34,970 nucleotides of DNA from Lysobacterales bacterium (lineage in GTDB: Bacteria > Pseudomonadota > Gammaproteobacteria > Xanthomonadales > Ahniellaceae): the NCBI GenBank assembly GCA_017997455.1, contig JAGOEZ010000008.1, positions 1-34,970 of the forward strand, written 5' to 3'. The translations under genes and the position numbers were made by a program. The notes under the pieces are model-generated. The model ran no database searches and was not told the origin of the DNA. It saw only the letters and a program-made list of their open reading frames with translations. Positions within the stretch are counted from its first letter, which is position 1, and the number at the start of each line of letters is the position of its first letter. Below are positions 16,269 through 24,690 of this stretch, one piece after another.

Positions 16269-18125
16269 TTGGAGTCCGTGGATCGAGTCGCGTGGACGCG
16301 TCCCGGCGGTCGTGCCCGCTTGCTGTGTGCCCTGGCGCTGCTGCTCGCGGCGCCGCTGGCCGGCGCCGACTTCACGCCGCAGGGTACCCAGCCGGGCCTT
16401 GCGGCGACCCTGGACGAGCCGCTGGCCTGCGCGAGCTGCCACGGCGCCTTCGAGCCCGGCGAAGCGAACTTCCTGCCGCACAGCAGCTGGAGCGGCTCGC
16501 TGATGTCCAATGCCGCGCGCGACCCGATCTTCTGGGCCGCGCTCGACGTGGCCAACCGCGACCTGCCGGGCGTCGGCGACTTCTGCCTGCGTTGCCACTC
16601 GCCGGCCGGCTGGCTCGCGGGGCGCGTGCGCAAGGATGGCGCCGGCGGCTTGGTCGACGGCACCAACGGTTGCCGGCTGCTGGGCGACCACGACAACGCC
16701 GACACCCAGAAGAACGATTACGCCGGCGTGACCTGCCACCTGTGCCACCGCCTGGCGCCGACCGGGCCGGCGGGACAGCGCGCGGCGCAGGGCAACGGCA
16801 ACTTCTGGCTCGACGACAGCCTCGAGTGCGACGGCTACTTCGGGCCCTGCCGCCGCGGACCCTACGCCTACGGGGCCAACGACCCGCTGGCGCCGCCGCA
16901 TGCCTGGGTCTACTCGCGCCACACGCAGTCCAGTGAACAATGCGGCACCTGCCACGACGTCTCCTCGCCGGACACCCCGACCGGGCCGGCACGGACGCTC
17001 ATCCTGGCCGACGGCACCGATACCGGGCTGGCCTTCCCCGCGGACCGCACCTACAGCGAATGGAAGCAGAGCGCCTACGCGGCCGTGCTGTACGCCGATT
17101 CGGCCGAGCCCGACTCGATGCCGGCCGTGCCGCCCGCCGGCGTCACCGATTGCCAGGACTGCCACATGCGGCGCAGCAGCGATCCGGCCGCGCGCGCCTG
17201 CCAGCAGAATCCCGAAGGCTCGCGCGCGGGCGGCGCGCTGGCGGTGCACGAGTTTGCCGGCGGCAACGTCTGGGCGATCAGGCTGCTGAAGGGGCTGTAC
17301 GGCGTGGGCCTGGACCGCATCGACGCCTTCGACCGCAGCATCGCCTGGGCGCAGGAACTGCTGAGCGACCATGCCGCGGATATCGCGGTGGACCTCGAGC
17401 CCTGGGCAGGCGGCAACGCGCCGCTTTCGGCGCGCGTGCGGGTCACCAACCGCAGCGGCCACAAGCTCCCCACCGGTTATGCCGAGGGACGGCGCATCTG
17501 GTTGCAGCTGGTCGCGCGCGACGCGACCCAGGCCGTGCTGTTCCAGAGCGGGACCTGGAACCCGGCGACCGGCGAACTGCCCGCGGACCCGCAGCTGAAG
17601 GTCTACGAGACCGTGCATGGCATCTGGGACGCCGGCAGCGGCAGCTGCCGCACCACCGACGCCATGGGCCGCAAGCAGTTCCACTTCGTGCTCAACAACT
17701 GCATCACCAAGGACAACCGCATCCCGCCGCAGGGATTCCGCCTGCCGGACGGACCCGGTTACGTCGGCGCGACCCTGGCGCCAGTGGGCTACAGCTATCC
17801 CGAAACCGCGCCGGGCTCGGGCGTGCTGGTGAACCACGACGACACCCAGTACCTCATCCCGCTCCCGCCCGGCGCGGTGCCGCCGATCACGGTGACGGCG
17901 ACGCTGCAGCACCAGACCTCGAGCCGCGAATACATCGAGTTCCTGCGCGACGAGGCGGTCGAGAATGCCATCCCGAGCGAGAACGACATGTGCAACCGCG
18001 ACTGGACCGTGGGCCCGGCGGACCGCAGCCGCGGCCAGTTCCTCCACGACCTGTGGAGCGACCCGGCCTATGGCCGCTCGCCGCCCACCGTGATGGTCGT
18101 GGCGGCGGCGAGCACGCCGCAATGA
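16269..18125 (+). CDS. Periplasmic five-heme c-type cytochrome (A)
   Basis: Five CxxCH heme-binding motifs lie in the N-terminal half: CASCH, CLRCH, CHLCH, CGTCH and CQDCH (residues 54-58, 106-110, 156-160, 225-229 and 295-299 from this start). The C-terminal half, about 270 residues, has no heme motif and looks beta-rich. A Sec signal (RARLLCALALLLAAPLAGA) precedes DFTPQGTQPGL, so hemes are attached in the periplasm. I chose the TTG at 16269 because GGGAG lies 7 bp upstream and it gives a normal signal peptide; an ATG at 16191 and a GTG at 16278 are also in frame. A paralogue lies at 22801-24690, sharing DPxFWAALDVANxDLPGVGDxCLRCH and SGHKLPTGYAEGRR. I do not recognise a characterised family. 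It may carry electrons to or from extracytoplasmic partners. It is the first gene of the block after clpA. Confidence 0.88.
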   Translation: MESVDRVAWTRPGGRARLLCALALLLAAPLAGADFTPQGTQPGLAATLDEPLACASCHGAFEPGEANFLPHSSWSGSLMSNAARDPIFWAALDVANRDLPGVGDFCLRCHSPAGWLAGRVRKDGAGGLVDGTNGCRLLGDHDNADTQKNDYAGVTCHLCHRLAPTGPAGQRAAQGNGNFWLDDSLECDGYFGPCRRGPYAYGANDPLAPPHAWVYSRHTQSSEQCGTCHDVSSPDTPTGPARTLILADGTDTGLAFPADRTYSEWKQSAYAAVLYADSAEPDSMPAVPPAGVTDCQDCHMRRSSDPAARACQQNPEGSRAGGALAVHEFAGGNVWAIRLLKGLYGVGLDRIDAFDRSIAWAQELLSDHAADIAVDLEPWAGGNAPLSARVRVTNRSGHKLPTGYAEGRRIWLQLVARDATQAVLFQSGTWNPATGELPADPQLKVYETVHGIWDAGSGSCRTTDAMGRKQFHFVLNNCITKDNRIPPQGFRLPDGPGYVGATLAPVGYSYPETAPGSGVLVNHDDTQYLIPLPPGAVPPITVTATLQHQTSSREYIEFLRDEAVENAIPSENDMCNRDWTVGPADRSRGQFLHDLWSDPAYGRSPPTVMVVAAASTPQ

Positions 18126-18754
18126 GATCCCGGCAGAGGCTGGTCCTGGATCGATTGGAGACGGCGTGGTCGCGCCTCGGCGCGACGATCGTGGCGGCGG
18201 CGGCGCTGGCCGCCTGCGCCGGCGTGCGCAGCCCGGAACTGGCGCCGGGTTCCGCGGCGGCGCACGTGCCCCACGAGCAGTTGGCCAACGGCGACGCGAT
18301 CGTGGTCGTCCGCGACTACGTGGACGAGTTCAAGCTCGACGGCGGCACGGTGCACAAGCGCGTCCGCTGGGCCTGGAACTACTCGCGCGGCCTCACCCAG
18401 GAGCTGCGCAGCAACCTCGATGGCTCGGAGCTCGTGGTCATCGACCACCCGCGGCTGACCCTGCGCGCCACCGCGGACGAGTTGCAATACGCGGTGTCGC
18501 TGGTTCGCGACGACCCGCGCTTCGCCGGCCGGGTGACGCCCGAGCTGCAGTTCGACAGCGGCTTCAGCTACCGTGAACCCGGCAATCCGGCCTGCTACCT
18601 GCATTCGCGCTGCATCCACGTGATCGCCAGCCGCGACGCCGGCGCCCACATCGTCATCCATGCGATCGTCGACCTGATGCAGGGGACGATCGTCGATCCA
18701 GACTATGATCCGCGCATGACCGGCATCGCGGATCCACCGGGCAAGGGAGAATAG
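18122..18754 (+). CDS. Lipoprotein of unknown function
   Basis: This 210 aa protein has a lipoprotein signal: basic N-terminus, hydrophobic AATIV-type core and lipobox LAAC with Cys32. The mature part contains VVVRDYVDEFKLDGG and a cysteine pair CYLHSRC that could form a disulfide. No family was recognised. Its ATG overlaps the cytochrome A stop (ATGA, 18122-18125), so translation is probably coupled. The next gene starts 7 bp after its stop. Context suggests a membrane-anchored partner of the cytochrome or of the secreted proteins downstream, but this is inference. Confidence 0.75.
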   Translation: MRSRQRLVLDRLETAWSRLGATIVAAAALAACAGVRSPELAPGSAAAHVPHEQLANGDAIVVVRDYVDEFKLDGGTVHKRVRWAWNYSRGLTQELRSNLDGSELVVIDHPRLTLRATADELQYAVSLVRDDPRFAGRVTPELQFDSGFSYREPGNPACYLHSRCIHVIASRDAGAHIVIHAIVDLMQGTIVDPDYDPRMTGIADPPGKGE

Positions 18755-18761
18755 GGCAGTG

Positions 18762-19964
18762 ATGAAGCATTTCCTGGCTGTGGTCGCCGTGGGCGGCTTG
18801 CTTGCGTTGTCGCCATCGGCGGCGCGCGCGGATTCGCCCACCTGCACCGCGCCGGAGGTCAAGCTGTCCTGGCCGGCCGTGAACCCGGTTTGGGAGCTGT
18901 GCTGGGTCGCCTACGGCAACAGCTCGGGCCCGCGCGGTTCGGGCCTGGAGCTGCGCAACGTGCATTACAACGGTCGCCTGGTGCTCAAGCGCGCGCATTC
19001 GCCGCTGCTGTTCGCCGAGTACACCAGCAGTACCTGCTACCGCGACTGGAAGGACGAGGGCGGGCCCTTCGTCGCCGAGCCGGCGGTGCGCAACCAGCTG
19101 GGGACCTCGGTGGCCTTCAATGCCACGACCAGTTGCGACCGCTCGGCGCAACCGGTCACCTCGTACGGTGCCTGTCCGTTCCAGCTGCCCGGCCGGAGCT
19201 CGGGCGACTGCTTCACCGGGGTCGCGATCGAGGAAGGCGGCGACCACGTCACCATGACCGCCAGCTATTCGGCGGCGTGGTACTTCTACACCTCGCGCTT
19301 CACCTTCAATGCCGACGGCTCCTTCGACCCGCAGTTCGGCTTCGGCAACCGCGACGGCACCGGCAACGGCACCACGCACTGGCACCACAACTACTGGCGC
19401 CTGGACTTCGACATCGAGGGTGCGGACAACGACCGGGTGCTGCAGGACGACGCCGTGCAGGCGCTCGAGTTCGCGACCCTGCGCTGCGATCCCTCGACCA
19501 CGCCGGCCTGCGCGACCGAGCGCAACTGGTCGGTGGTCGATTCGGTGACCGGTCGCGGCTACCGCCTGCTGCCGAGCGGGGACGACTACAAGACCCCGAC
19601 CAACCAGTCGGGACGCAACTTCCACCTGCGCGACGTCATCGGCTCGATCTACAAGAACGGCGAGTACGGCGACCAGGCGTCCAACAGCCTCGGCGACTGC
19701 GTGATGGCCCACGGCAACCTCGCCAACGGCGAGGATCTCGATGGCGCCACCGGCGCCGGCACCGATGTCGTGCTCTATTACCGCGCCGGCGTGCGCGATC
19801 GCACCAACGAGGGGCCGGGCACCCAGGACTCGATGGTCTGCAAGAGCGCCGGCCCGGTGTTCGTGCCGATCGGCGACTGGAGCGTGGGCGGGCCACGCCC
19901 GGATCCGCTGTTCGCCGACGGTTTCGAGCCGGCGGTCGTCACGGGGAGTGCGCCGGGCGCCTAG
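18762..19964 (+). CDS. Secreted copper-amine-oxidase-like protein
   Basis: This 400 aa protein has a signal peptide (MKHFLAVVAVGGLLALSPSAARA). It resembles the catalytic barrel of copper amine oxidases: GSGLELRNVHYNGRLVLKRA near 58-78, WYFYTSRFTFNADGS (173-187), and THWHHNYWRLDFDIEG (205-220), matching the copper-ligand motif HxH followed by RxDxDxDG with His206 and His208. Two key features are not conserved. The TPQ consensus TxxN-Tyr-[DE] is at best TASYS (Tyr169), and the region where the third copper His is expected reads GVRDR (343-347). Classical enzymes are larger (about 630-750 aa) and carry extra N-terminal domains. It is rich in cysteines, consistent with export. The C-terminus has PLFADGFEP, a tail shared with the next protein. 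ATG 18762 has AGGG 5 bp upstream; GTG 18759 is possible. Confidence 0.72.
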   Translation: MKHFLAVVAVGGLLALSPSAARADSPTCTAPEVKLSWPAVNPVWELCWVAYGNSSGPRGSGLELRNVHYNGRLVLKRAHSPLLFAEYTSSTCYRDWKDEGGPFVAEPAVRNQLGTSVAFNATTSCDRSAQPVTSYGACPFQLPGRSSGDCFTGVAIEEGGDHVTMTASYSAAWYFYTSRFTFNADGSFDPQFGFGNRDGTGNGTTHWHHNYWRLDFDIEGADNDRVLQDDAVQALEFATLRCDPSTTPACATERNWSVVDSVTGRGYRLLPSGDDYKTPTNQSGRNFHLRDVIGSIYKNGEYGDQASNSLGDCVMAHGNLANGEDLDGATGAGTDVVLYYRAGVRDRTNEGPGTQDSMVCKSAGPVFVPIGDWSVGGPRPDPLFADGFEPAVVTGSAPGA

Positions 19965-20163
19965 CGGCGACGTTGGGGGGGCGACCGCGCACCCGCAGCC
20001 CGGTGCGCGCGATGCCTGCGCCCGGGCGGACGCGTCTGCTCCGCATTTGCATTCGTTCATGCCGTGTGACGACTCGCGCCGATGCGCGCGACGGCACGCC
20101 GCGCCGTTCGAGTGGCTGGATCCTGCGTTCGTCGCCGCGGGTCCGTGGTCTCGCCCGGACGGC

Positions 20164-20193
20164 TTGTGCGCCGACGCAGCCAGCGGCGAAAAT
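20164..20193 (+). promoter_or_regulatory. Possible promoter of the Ig-domain gene
   Basis: TTGTGC (20164-20169) and GAAAAT (20188-20193) are separated by 18 bp, 31 bp before the next start codon. They are weak matches to sigma-70 consensus. The 260 bp gap 19965-20224 otherwise shows no gene or strong hairpin; this suggests a second transcription start inside the block. Confidence 0.25.
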
Positions 20194-20224
20194 GGCGGAT
20201 CGTTTTCGAGCGGGAGTTGGCTCC

Positions 20225-22804
20225 ATGAAGGCGCGCGCAACGGCGATCCTCTCTGCCACGGTCGCCGTGGTCCTCGCATCGAACGCCTTCGCGGCAACCC
20301 CGCCGGCCGACCCGGTCGACGGCGTCGACCAGTTGCGCGCGCAGGAGCTCAGCGGCTGGGACGGCCGCATGGATCGCGTGACCACCCGCGGCGGCAGCGT
20401 GGAATTCATCTGGAACGACGACCTGCTGGGGATCCTCGGCCTGCAGCGCGCCGGTGATCCCGCGCAACGCTCGGTCACGGTGCCCCTGGGCGCGGCCAGC
20501 CGCTTCGACGTCGACGCCCGGCGCGAGAGCGTGCGCGGCATCGCCGGTGGCGAGGTCGGCCTGGCTGGCGATATCGTGTTCAGCACCGGCCGCGGGCGCA
20601 TCGTGGTGGAGGCGCCTCGACTGGTGGTGCGCCCGGGCGATGCGCTGCGCATCGATGTGATGGGCAAGGATGGGCAGGTGCTGCTGTACGTCGACCGCGT
20701 GATGTACGAGCTCCTCGACGACGGCCAGCGGTTCTACATCCGCAGCGCCGACCTGCGCGTCGCGCCGGCGCTGGCCGCGCGGATCGGACGTCCGGAGTCC
20801 GTGGACCTGGCGATCGCCGAGCTCAAGGTGATGACCGCGGTCGCGGCGCGCGCCGGCGGCAGCGAGCCCTATGCCTGCGGCGACCCGAACTGGCCGGGCG
20901 AGTCGGTGCCCGGCGGCGGCGGCGCGCGCTACCAGGCCGACGTCTTCATGCAGGCCTTCAGCGGGCAGCTGTCGCGTTGCCGCGCGACGCCTGCCGGCGG
21001 GGCCTGCGACGGCCCCGGCGGCGCCACCGACGGCGACGTCGTCTACACGCCCTCGTCGACCCTGATCAACAACATCGCCAACGGCAGCATCGTGGCGACG
21101 ATTCCCGGCGATCCGCTCGGCACCAGCACCACGGCCCACACCGCGGACGTCGAGTGGGACCAGAAGTTCACCAACTCGGCGAGCGGGCCCTATGCGAGTC
21201 CCGACCAGCACCCGTACCTTATCTGGAACCTGTACCGCCTCGACACCGACGGCAGCATCACCCAGGTCGGTCGTTCGGGCGTCAAGCACGCATTCCTCAC
21301 CACCAACGTGGGGAGCGGCTGCGAGAGCTGCAACGGCAACCACGTGCTGGGACGCCAGTGCGGCGATACCTACGGCACCGGCAACAACGACAGCAACAGC
21401 GACCTCGGGCCGCGGCGTGAGTTGCTGCCGGCGGCCGGCTTGTGGGGCCGCTGCGGCTCGATCTACGACACCAATTGCGACGGCGTATCCAACCCGTCGG
21501 GCAACACCAGCTACGACCAGCGCCTGATCGTGAAGGAGTCGGCGCTCGATGCGGCCGCGAATCCCGGCGCGACTTACCAGTTCGAGTCCTGGTACATCGT
21601 TCGCGACGACATCAACATCTACAACACCATGGCCAGCCGGCCCTTCACGCCATCCTGGAATGGCGCCAGCTGGACCGCCGCCAACGGCAGCCCGTTCCGC
21701 CTCGGACCGGCGCTGGACCGTTGGATCGACGCCGGCGTCGCCGCGGGCGACCTCACCCGCAATGTCGAGCTGGTGGCGCCCGAGGGGCGCGCGAAGGTCG
21801 CGGTGCGGGTCGACGATCTCGGCAATGGCAGCTGGCGCTACCACTACGCGCTGATGAACTTCGACTTCGCGCGCGGCGTGACCCAGGGCAGCGAGCCGAA
21901 CCTGCGCGTCGTGCGCAACGATGGTTTCAACCGCTTCGCGGTCCGCGTCGGTGCCAGCGCCACGATCTCGCAGATCGCCTATGCCGACGGCGATCCCGCG
22001 CGCGCCGACTGGATCGCCACGCAGACGGCCAGCGGCATCGAGTGGGCCGCGCCGGATGCCGCGGCGAGCCAGAACTGGGGCGTGATGGCGCGCTTCAGCT
22101 TCGTGGCCAACCAGGCGCCGGTGGATGGCGCCACCGCCACGCTGGGCGTGACCGAAGCCGGCACGCCGGCCAGCTACGACGTGGCCACTGTGAAGGCCGG
22201 CGGTGCCGCAACGCCCAGCGCGCCCGATCTCGTCAACGACAGTGGCCGCTCGAGCATCGACAACATCACCAATGCCGCGGACCCGATCTTCACTGGCACC
22301 TGCCAGAGCGGCGATTCCATCCAGCTGCGCAATGGGGCCAGCGACGTGGGCGCCCCCGTGGCATGCACCAGCGGCAACTACCTCATCACCATCGCCGGCC
22401 TGGCCGAGGGCAGCTACAACCTTGCCGCGCGGGGTTCGCTGGGCGCTGACCTGAGCGCGCCCAGCGCGGCGGTGGCGGTGGTCGTCGATCGCACCGCGCC
22501 CGCGGCACCCGCGATCACCGGCCCGGCGGCGATTCCGTCCATCGCGGTGACGGTGACCGGCACCGGCGGCGAGGCCAGTGCGGAATTGCGCCTGTTCGAC
22601 GGCGCGGTTCAGGCCTGCTCGACCATCCTCGCCGGTGCGGGCAACTGGAGCTGCAATGCCACCCTGGCAGGCCCGGGCCTGCGCACGGTCGTGGCACGCC
22701 AGACCGATGCCGCTGGCAACGTCGGCGCGGACTCCGCCGGGTTCGACATCGACGTGTCGGGCTTCATCTTCGCCAACGGCTTCGAGACGCCGGTCCTTCA
22801 GTGA
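20225..22804 (+). CDS. Large secreted Ig-domain protein
   Basis: This 859 aa exported protein has a clear signal peptide (1-23, ending SNAFA). Residues 24-200 are beta-rich with no recognised family. A cysteine-rich segment (350-400) has SGVKHAFLTT, CESCNGNHVLGRQCGDTYG and LGPRREL; the cysteines and Asp/Asn-rich part suggest metal binding or disulfides. The CESCNGNH is not a heme motif. The C-terminal third (about 676-845) has two bacterial Ig-like repeats with paired cysteines, the type found in surface adhesins (DRTAPAAPAITGP and ARQTDAAGNVGADS are typical seams). The tail IFANGFE (848-854) matches the tail of the preceding protein. GGGAG lies 9 bp before the ATG. Its stop overlaps the GTG start of cytochrome B (GTGA). 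Function unknown. Confidence 0.8.
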   Translation: MKARATAILSATVAVVLASNAFAATPPADPVDGVDQLRAQELSGWDGRMDRVTTRGGSVEFIWNDDLLGILGLQRAGDPAQRSVTVPLGAASRFDVDARRESVRGIAGGEVGLAGDIVFSTGRGRIVVEAPRLVVRPGDALRIDVMGKDGQVLLYVDRVMYELLDDGQRFYIRSADLRVAPALAARIGRPESVDLAIAELKVMTAVAARAGGSEPYACGDPNWPGESVPGGGGARYQADVFMQAFSGQLSRCRATPAGGACDGPGGATDGDVVYTPSSTLINNIANGSIVATIPGDPLGTSTTAHTADVEWDQKFTNSASGPYASPDQHPYLIWNLYRLDTDGSITQVGRSGVKHAFLTTNVGSGCESCNGNHVLGRQCGDTYGTGNNDSNSDLGPRRELLPAAGLWGRCGSIYDTNCDGVSNPSGNTSYDQRLIVKESALDAAANPGATYQFESWYIVRDDINIYNTMASRPFTPSWNGASWTAANGSPFRLGPALDRWIDAGVAAGDLTRNVELVAPEGRAKVAVRVDDLGNGSWRYHYALMNFDFARGVTQGSEPNLRVVRNDGFNRFAVRVGASATISQIAYADGDPARADWIATQTASGIEWAAPDAAASQNWGVMARFSFVANQAPVDGATATLGVTEAGTPASYDVATVKAGGAATPSAPDLVNDSGRSSIDNITNAADPIFTGTCQSGDSIQLRNGASDVGAPVACTSGNYLITIAGLAEGSYNLAARGSLGADLSAPSAAVAVVVDRTAPAAPAITGPAAIPSIAVTVTGTGGEASAELRLFDGAVQACSTILAGAGNWSCNATLAGPGLRTVVARQTDAAGNVGADSAGFDIDVSGFIFANGFETPVLQ

Positions 22805-24690
22805 GCAGGTGGTTCGCGTTGCGCCTGCCGGCGCGAGCCGGTCGGCGCGTCTTGACGATCCTTGCCGCGTGCCTCGTTGCGACAGCGGCGAACGCCGTCG
22901 CAGCCGGAGGTCCGGCTGATTTCACCCTGCACGGTACCCAGCCCGGCCTGGCGGTGCCGATGGACGGCTCCACCGATTGCCTCAACTGCCACGGCGGGTT
23001 CTCCGGCGCCGACCGCAGCTTCATGCCGCACTCGACCTGGAGCGGCTCGATCATGGCCAACGCGACCCGCGACCCGTTGTTCTGGGCCGCGCTGGACGTC
23101 GCCAACCACGACCTGCCGGGCGTCGGCGACTGGTGCTTGCGCTGCCACACGCCTTCGGGCTGGCTGGCCGGACGCGCGGGCAAGAATGCCCAGGGCATCG
23201 TGGTCGCGGGCGGCGAGACCGGCTGCCGCCTCACCGGCGACCACGACGACTACGAGAACTACGACTCCGAATTCAACGGCAACGACTACGGCGGCGTGAG
23301 CTGCCACCTGTGCCATCGCCAGCAGGCCAACGGCACCTTGCCCGCGGGCGTGCGCCGGGACAGCGGCAATCTTTTCATCGACGACAGCCTCGATTGCGAG
23401 GGCAGCGGATTCGGCCCGTGCCGGATCGGGCCCTATCGTTATCCCGAGGAAGGCATCTCCGCACCACCGCACGTCGCTGCGTATTCTGCCTTCGTCAAGC
23501 GCGGCGAGTTCTGCGGCAGTTGCCACGACGTCACCACGCCGATCCTGGCCAGCGGGCCGGCGGTGACGCTCAAGGACGCAACCGGGGCCGACACCGGCAT
23601 CCCGTTCCCGGTCGAGCGCACCTACAGCGAATGGCGCGCCAGCGCCTACAACGACCCGATCTTCGTCGACGGATTCGCGCCTGAGGAGCCGCGCGGCGAC
23701 CTGGCCCGCTTCGGCCGGACCTGCCAGTCCTGCCACATGGCCTCCAGCACCGACCCGCTTGCGCGGGCCTGCCAGCAGAATGCGCCGGGCTCGCGCACCG
23801 GCAACCTGCCGGTGCATGAACTGGTCGGCGCCAACGCGTGGATCACCGGCGTGATCGGCATGCTCTATGGCGGCCCGGACGGCCTCAACCGCGAAGCCGA
23901 GTTCGCGCGCTCGGTGCAAGCCGCGAACGACATGTTGACCTTGCGCAGCGCCGACCTGGCGCTGGCGCTCGATCCGCTCGCCGGTGGCGCGCAGTCCCTC
24001 ACCGCCCGCGTGCGCGTGACCAACCTCAGCGGCCACAAGTTGCCGACCGGTTACGCCGAGGGGCGGCGCATGTGGTTGCAGGTCGAGGCCAGCATCGGCG
24101 CCGGGCCGCCATTCTGGCGCAGTGGCGACTACGACGAGGCCAGCGGCACACTGACCGAGGATGCGCAGGCCAAGGTCTACGAAATCCAGCAGGGCATCTG
24201 GAATGCCAGCAGCGGCGAATGCGCGATCAGCGATGCGCTGGGGCGCAAGGTCTTCCACTTCGCCACCAGCGATTGCATCCGCAAGGACAACCGCATCCCG
24301 CCGCGCGGTTTCCGTGGTGGCGCCGACCCGGAGCTGCGCCCGGTCGGGCAGGTGTATCCGGAAACCAGTCCGGGTTCGGGCGTGCTGGTCGACTACGACG
24401 ACACGGTCTACGCGATCCCGCTGCCGCCGGGCACCACGGGCGCGGTCACGGTCAACGTGCGCCTGCGCCACCAGGTGGCGACGCGCGAGTACGTGGAGTT
24501 CCTGCGCAACGAGGCCGTCGACTACGCCTTCCCGAGCGAGAACGCCTTGTGCGCGCCATTCCGCGCGCCGCTGGAAACCGGGCCGCGCACGCAGAGCCGC
24601 GGCCAGTTCATGTACGAGCTGTGGACCAACAACGGGCGTTCGCCGCCGGTGACGATGCGGACGGCGGTGGCGACGAGTACCAGCCCCTAG
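22801..24690 (+). CDS. Periplasmic five-heme c-type cytochrome (B)
   Basis: This 629 aa paralogue of cytochrome A has five CxxCH motifs at the same relative places: CLNCH (60-64), CLRCH (112-116), CHLCH (168-172), CGSCH (238-242) and CQSCH (308-312). A Sec signal (RRVLTILAACLVATAANAVAA) precedes GGPADFTLHGTQPGL. The C-terminal half has no heme motif, and SGHKLPTGYAEGRRMWLQ, KDNRIPPRGF and REYVEFLRNEAVDYAFPSEN are shared with cytochrome A. The start is GTG 22801 within the overlap GTGA with the upstream stop, so translational coupling is likely. Conservation of all five hemes and the C-terminal domain in both copies argues that each is functional. Redox partner and substrate are unknown. Confidence 0.88.
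   Translation: MSRWFALRLPARAGRRVLTILAACLVATAANAVAAGGPADFTLHGTQPGLAVPMDGSTDCLNCHGGFSGADRSFMPHSTWSGSIMANATRDPLFWAALDVANHDLPGVGDWCLRCHTPSGWLAGRAGKNAQGIVVAGGETGCRLTGDHDDYENYDSEFNGNDYGGVSCHLCHRQQANGTLPAGVRRDSGNLFIDDSLDCEGSGFGPCRIGPYRYPEEGISAPPHVAAYSAFVKRGEFCGSCHDVTTPILASGPAVTLKDATGADTGIPFPVERTYSEWRASAYNDPIFVDGFAPEEPRGDLARFGRTCQSCHMASSTDPLARACQQNAPGSRTGNLPVHELVGANAWITGVIGMLYGGPDGLNREAEFARSVQAANDMLTLRSADLALALDPLAGGAQSLTARVRVTNLSGHKLPTGYAEGRRMWLQVEASIGAGPPFWRSGDYDEASGTLTEDAQAKVYEIQQGIWNASSGECAISDALGRKVFHFATSDCIRKDNRIPPRGFRGGADPELRPVGQVYPETSPGSGVLVDYDDTVYAIPLPPGTTGAVTVNVRLRHQVATREYVEFLRNEAVDYAFPSENALCAPFRAPLETGPRTQSRGQFMYELWTNNGRSPPVTMRTAVATSTSP

Follow-up and report, generated by a model that had tools for sequence, protein, structure and literature searches.

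A pentaheme cytochrome of the Lysobacterales heads a conserved operon with a putative split, divergent amine-oxidase-like protein

We analyzed a 34,970-nucleotide stretch of the genome of a Lysobacterales bacterium (assembly GCA_017997455.1, contig JAGOEZ010000008.1, positions 1 to 34,970), referred to here as the window. It encodes two paralogous pentaheme c-type cytochromes, cytA and cytB, with the genes F3, F1 and F2 between them, all on the plus strand. A conserved operon, cytochrome-F3-F1, begins with cytA, and structure prediction and profile alignment give F1 the fold of a copper amine oxidase together with part of its active site. Our preferred reading, held tentatively and with somewhat less than even confidence, is a divergent enzyme of the amine-oxidase type, split between F3 and F1, from which electrons pass to the pentaheme cytochrome. 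The cytochromes extend a superfamily already known from Geobacter and cable bacteria; what is new is the operon that joins such a cytochrome to a divergent, apparently split relative of the amine oxidases.

A conserved cytochrome-F3-F1 operon

Among 28 related loci that we compared, the block cytochrome-F3-F1 recurs, often with F2 upstream or downstream. We surveyed 250 genomes of the order, counting a cytochrome at E ≤ 1e-60, and found it in 50. The 31 of the 250 genomes that contain F1 are also precisely those that contain F3. In 30 of these 31, F1 lies on the strand of the cytochrome and starts 591-767 bp downstream of it (Fisher 2.5e-24); in the remaining one (G007) F1 is adjoined by a divergent pentaheme cytochrome. 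The window has the same arrangement: F3 (18122..18754) overlaps the end of cytA (16269..18125) and is followed by F1 (18762..19964).

Genes found upstream of the cassette elsewhere (F9, F5, F31 and F4) were rejected as partners. They encode housekeeping proteins (GlnD, DapD, an ArsC-type protein and DapE) and are insertion context. The same cassette genes also adjoin members of a divergent pentaheme subfamily that carry an extra domain at the N-terminus (ISGRVVDVVDGxPLAGA...), seen at loci L114 (4209-5957), L121 (6217-7881), L122 (6655-8319) and L142 (minus strand).

F1 has the predicted fold of a copper amine oxidase

F1 encodes a secreted protein of 400 aa. Its similarity to copper amine oxidases is barely visible to Pfam: PF01179 matches the window copy at 17.4 bits, below the gathering cut-off of 27, and gives weak matches in 14 of 16 F1 members (best E 6.3e-7). 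A Foldseek search of the PDB with the AlphaFold model (pTM 0.81) returned 119 matches at E ≤ 1e-3, and all 50 listed are copper amine oxidases (best E 6e-13, prob 1.00). We also aligned F1 by hhalign with nine copper amine oxidases, E. coli K-12 TynA and sequences from plasmid records. Residues 60-374 aligned with a probability of 97% (E 1.2e-10) and a score of 90, while the best of 60 column shuffles reached 24.

Several active-site residues are retained in this alignment (oxidase sites are numbered as in mature E. coli TynA). The gate residue Tyr369 corresponds to Tyr87 of F1, the tyrosine that gives rise to trihydroxyphenylalanine quinone (TPQ), Tyr466, to Tyr174, and the copper ligands His524 and His526 to His206 and His208. 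These assignments have posteriors of 0.89-0.97, and the F1 residues are invariant in the 16 members. In the window, Tyr174, His206 and His208 lie at nt 19281, 19377 and 19383. Judged from the model and the alignment, F1 combines an amine-oxidase fold with part of the active site.

F3 may supply a second piece of the same architecture. It encodes a lipoprotein of about 210 aa (lipobox LAAC in the window copy) for which we found no Pfam or PDB match. When compared by hhalign with the nine oxidases, F3 aligned to TynA residues 190-307, the cystatin-like N3 domain, with a score of 40.2. Controls scored lower: the maximum was 24.6 in 60 shuffles, the reversed profile reached 18 and unrelated profiles 17-25. 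Furthermore, the gene order F3-F1 is the domain order N3-catalytic of copper amine oxidases. The best reading of these comparisons is that F3 and F1 represent a split amine oxidase, with F3 as the weaker half.

TynA and its relatives share with F1 the catalytic-domain fold, the position of the TPQ tyrosine, the gate tyrosine and the HxH motif. They differ from the F3-F1 pair, which is divided over two genes beside a multiheme cytochrome, has an aspartate aligned with the third ligand and tryptophan in place of asparagine, and shows no aligned catalytic base. Canonical copper amine oxidases were absent from 61 relatives, and among open-licence PMC papers we found none that mentions multiheme cytochromes alongside copper amine oxidases.

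A proposed electron path and the evidence against it

We propose that F3 and F1 together would constitute a split, divergent amine-oxidase-like redox enzyme located outside the inner membrane. The metal site of F1, formed by two histidines and perhaps one aspartate beside the tyrosine at the TPQ position, would oxidize a substrate. Its electrons would then enter the five-heme chain of the cytochrome, which would replace O2 as acceptor or serve alongside it, and from there they could go on to the respiratory chain or to an outer-membrane conduit of the Mtr type encoded elsewhere in the genome. That electrons flow from F1 to the cytochrome is suggested by the operon linkage and the fold alone, whereas the family membership of the cytochrome and the operon itself are shown by the analysis. 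A more specific version appears unlikely in its full detail: a new kind of cytochrome-coupled oxidase acting as a dehydrogenase, with the copper-amine-oxidase fold divided between an N3-like lipoprotein and a catalytic subunit whose metal is held by two histidines and one aspartate. Electrons from an amine or other substrate would enter the pentaheme cytochrome and might even leave the cell.

Several observations weigh against the proposed enzyme. The copper ligand His689 aligns to Asp346 of F1 (nt 19797), which is invariant in the 16 members, although the posterior for this column is just 0.55; His288, also invariant, may be a metal ligand in its stead. Asn465, which precedes the TPQ tyrosine, is replaced by Trp173, so that the motif reads W-Y-x instead of N-Y-[DE] around Tyr174 (posterior 0.89). 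The catalytic base Asp383 falls opposite a gap and has no aligned residue in F1; a shifted Asp95 is a possible substitute. Because the third ligand, the asparagine and the base are not kept, F1 may not make TPQ and may not be an oxidase. Accordingly, F1 does not qualify as a canonical copper amine oxidase, as it has neither the three-histidine ligand set nor the aligned base and scores below the PF01179 gathering threshold. The link between F3 and N3 is weak, with an hhalign probability of 53%. Finally, the cytochrome occurs without F1 and F3 in 20 of its 50 genomes, where it must have another partner.

The lost residues lend themselves to a different explanation: F1 could be an inactive amine oxidase that persists in a structural or matrix role, linked to the cytochrome in an operon through co-export or co-regulation rather than electron transfer. 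The unconserved third copper ligand and catalytic base would fit this picture, as would the window copy's Pfam score below the curated cut-off. However, Tyr174, His206, His208 and Asp346 are invariant in 16 of 16 members, and 30 of the 31 F1 genes lie directly downstream of this cytochrome type, with the 31st beside a divergent one. We regard a dead F1 as improbable.

Two paralogous pentaheme cytochromes

The two cytochromes flanking F3, F1 and F2 are closely related. cytA starts at a TTG codon (16269) and ends at 18125, with alternative starts at ATG 16191 and GTG 16278. It carries a signal peptide (...RLLCALALLLAAPLAGA) and five CxxCH motifs within 16428..17165, identified by pattern scan, whose first bases are 16428, 16584, 16734, 16941 and 17151; all five are 100% conserved in the alignment of relatives. 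cytB (22801..24690) begins with a GTG that overlaps the stop of F2 and is likewise predicted to be exported. Its five CxxCH motifs, within 22978..23736, begin at 22978, 23134, 23302, 23512 and 23722. The two proteins are 54% identical in an end-to-end alignment that also matches seven further cysteines, and share KDNRIPPxGF and SGHKLPTGYAEGRR. Their phmmer E of about 1e-198 is far beyond chance. The first-pass annotation of this DNA had described them as two intact five-heme paralogues, and we agree: both reading frames are open and full length, each with exactly five CxxCH motifs at matching positions. A search of the draft genome (2.9 Mb) outside the window found one more, a third and more distant copy on another contig that is about 40% identical (G000:C202:1297-2991).

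The same annotation had taken both proteins to be exported cytochromes for electron transfer, with a C-terminal domain set apart from the heme region. This is borne out, and the domain corresponds to the immunoglobulin (Ig)-like domain of the pentaheme cytochrome (PHC) family. The annotation had further guessed that this domain may bind a partner. In cytB it spans 23950..24675, with strands from residues 384 to 625 (DSSP of the AlphaFold model); the boundary in cytA, 17376..18113, was transferred from the cytB model by alignment. Heme attachment is plausible, since the genome encodes a cytochrome c assembly protein.

Both proteins are members of the PHC superfamily, which includes ExtKL, Gsu2801 and the low-potential pentaheme cytochrome c552 of Thermochromatium tepidum. 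Single sequences reveal little of this. A PDB search with cytA alone gave no match, and the sole Pfam model above its cut-off in the pair was the generic Cytochrome_C7, in cytA. A profile built from 56 relatives matched c552 (5ze8) with an E of 1.9e-15, the multiheme cytochrome selenoprotein MccSep (9wt8) with 5e-9, and the nitrite reductase NrfA more weakly. A Foldseek search of 350,542 PDB chains with the AlphaFold model of cytB (pLDDT 89.5, pTM 0.89) gave one significant match, again 5ze8 (E 6.7e-12, TM 0.65 by target length). The NCBIfam ExtKL model NF040886 touches 47 of the 56 members, and cytA and cytB fall under its equivalog cut-off; they belong to the superfamily of ExtKL but are not ExtKL itself.

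The closest comparison is with c552. It shares the five c-hemes, the C-terminal Ig-like domain, a full-length fold match and the histidine of GHxxPTG. On the other hand, sequence identity is only about 15%, cytA and cytB are longer, with extra conserved cysteines and loops, and the histidine of the WxGSxH motif in c552 is a methionine in both. We know of no amine-oxidase-like neighbor of T. tepidum c552. ExtKL, MccSep and the PHC proteins of cable bacteria share the pentaheme and Ig-like layout and the profile matches. The selenocysteine position near GHxxPxG aligns with a tyrosine in cytA and cytB, which have no selenocysteine. Gene context also differs, as ExtKL lies beside the porin ExtI. 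Longer PHC-type reading frames, of 1289-1605 residues with five CxxCH motifs, occur in Chloroflexi, a methanotroph, a Nitrospirota member and a deltaproteobacterium (L021, L022, L023, L024 and L028); their length suggests fusions with other domains.

Candidate heme ligands

We examined ligand conservation in 65 relatives of the cytochrome from several phyla. Only three histidines outside the CxxCH motifs are near-invariant: H237 (56 of 63 letters), H353 (63 of 64) and H424, in the motif SGHKLPTG (65 of 65). A fourth candidate is position 105 in the WxGSxx motif. There, 43 relatives have methionine, 10 histidine and 9 lysine, a pattern expected of an axial heme ligand that tunes redox potential. 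cytA and cytB agree at all four positions.

H424 bears on the first-pass description of the C-terminal domain as heme-free. The last 260-270 residues indeed hold no CxxCH, but the domain would supply one ligand, as the invariant histidine of SGHKLPTG (codon 17460-17462 in cytA, His412 in cytB) is probably an axial heme ligand.

With only M105, H237, H353 and H424 as conserved non-motif candidates, one of the five hemes would have no conserved sixth ligand. This raises the prospect that the cytochromes are reductases of nitrite, hydroxylamine, or sulfur or selenium oxyanions, with a heme lacking a sixth protein ligand as the active site and F1 and F3 as accessories. We consider this quite improbable. 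It would accommodate the weak profile similarity to NrfA, also a five-heme protein, and the 20 genomes with the cytochrome but without F1 and F3. However, all five motifs in cytA and cytB are CxxCH, with no CxxCK active-site heme of the NrfA type; an Ig-like domain is present instead, and there is no significant fold match to NrfA. In addition, H183 or another variable residue may serve as the fifth ligand, and no activity has been assigned to c552, the closest relative with a solved structure. The full-length match of cytA and cytB could have pointed to enzymes whose reaction is known; it points to the c552/ExtKL family, whose structure is known and whose reaction is not assigned (PMC11976967).

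Links to extracellular electron transfer

The PHC family includes ExtKL, Gsu2801 and proteins of cable bacteria, has an Ig-like domain in its layout, and has been likened to c552 and to the archaeal nanowire AvECN (PMC11976967). Nanowires of the AvECN type are polymers in which hemes stack across the interfaces between subunits; the likeness of cytA and cytB to AvECN comes solely through this family. The genome also holds a candidate Mtr-type outer-membrane electron conduit on contig C187 (L158, G000:C187, 4513-9574): a NapC/NrfH-type tetraheme cytochrome, a further heme protein, a decaheme MtrA-like protein and an MtrB/PioB porin.

The cytochromes could accordingly be parts of an extracellular electron transfer system, connecting the periplasm, an Mtr-type porin and acceptors outside the cell, possibly in AvECN-like assemblies, with F1 and F2 as non-catalytic surface scaffolds. 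In favor of this, ExtKL is among the PHC relatives, as is AvECN on structural grounds (PMC11976967). Geobacter extHIJKL contributes to metal reduction, and the porin, decaheme and NapC-type cytochromes reside in the same genome. F1 and F2 are rich in cysteines and each ends in a tag, features characteristic of exported proteins. Yet the Mtr cluster lies on another contig and the cassette contains no porin, and the conserved tyrosine and HxH motif of F1 argue against a pure scaffold role. On balance we think this unlikely, though more probable than the other alternatives to the split enzyme that we favor.

Copy number and history of the locus

The presence of two intact copies had been taken in the first-pass annotation to imply two distinct roles, for example as a heterodimer or as two successive steps of one electron path. 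Both copies are indeed intact and close together, and tandem pairs occur in some other genomes. The survey does not uphold the inference: a single copy is present in 44 of the 50 genomes with the cytochrome, and two copies in the other six. The A clade (G001, G005, G008 and G009) and the B clade (G002, G003 and G006) are separate, confined to the host family and supported at 98/99 and 100/99, and each is found without the other even in genomes that are 98-100% complete. Other tandem pairs, such as that of G011, arose separately and are lineage-specific. A heterodimer or a two-step path is thus very improbable. cytB is a diverged paralogue that travels with F2, not with F3-F1, and relatives often retain just one of the two genes.

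The same chromosomal site, with clpS-clpA on one side and the same small gene on the other, carries A-F3-F1 in G001, F2-B-F2 in G003 and A-F3-F1-F2-B in the window. The simplest reading of this pattern and of its order of events would be an ancestral locus with both copies followed by differential loss.

F2 and a recurrent C-terminal tag

F2 (20225..22804) encodes a secreted protein of 859 aa and overlaps the start of cytB. It contains a Big_13 Ig-like part and a conserved region without a known family or Pfam relative, with the highly conserved motifs DQHPYLIWNLYR, GVKHAF, DTYGTGNND and DDINIYNTM. F2 is present in 101 of the 250 genomes. We rejected it as part of the operon core: it often occurs without the cytochrome, it has no PDB match and it bears no likeness to amine oxidases.

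F1 and F2 end in similar tags, FADGFE (19911-19928) and FANGFE (22769-22786). The pattern [LIVM]FA[DN]GFE lies at the C-terminus of many secreted proteins, among them those at L134 (2991) and at many of the loci L064-L083. It has 20 exact DNA matches in this genome, compared with 0 for the reversed pattern, and all 13 readable matches reach a stop within 6-17 codons. Among 61 related genomes the tag occurs in 47, in up to about 46 copies. No NCBIfam model matches it in F1 or F2, the two window proteins that carry it, and a literature search for the FADGFE tag returned matches only to unrelated words. The tag resembles a signal for sorting or anchoring, of an undescribed type that lacks a membrane helix.

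Related motifs occur in the cytochromes. A tag-like loop in cytB, IFVDGFAPEEP (window about 23650-23690), lies between heme sites 4 and 5 in a low-confidence region of the model. Of 29 A/B-type cytochromes, 14 have such a motif in this loop, and it is absent from the rest of these proteins (0.24 expected after shuffling). In tagged paralogues its place is the C-terminus, not the heme 4/5 loop: the third copy ends in ...ILADGFEP, and the GFE tag is present in the divergent subfamily at L114, L121 and L122.

Implications

The pentaheme family is widespread, occurring in about one fifth of the genomes of the order and also in Fimbriimonadia, Planctomycetes, Chloroflexi and others, and none of its members has been assigned a reaction. 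Close operon linkage to a recognizable, though divergent, oxidase fold would give this family a testable partner and a reaction type. Reduction of hemes instead of oxygen by a protein with the copper-amine-oxidase fold would likewise be a novelty among these enzymes.

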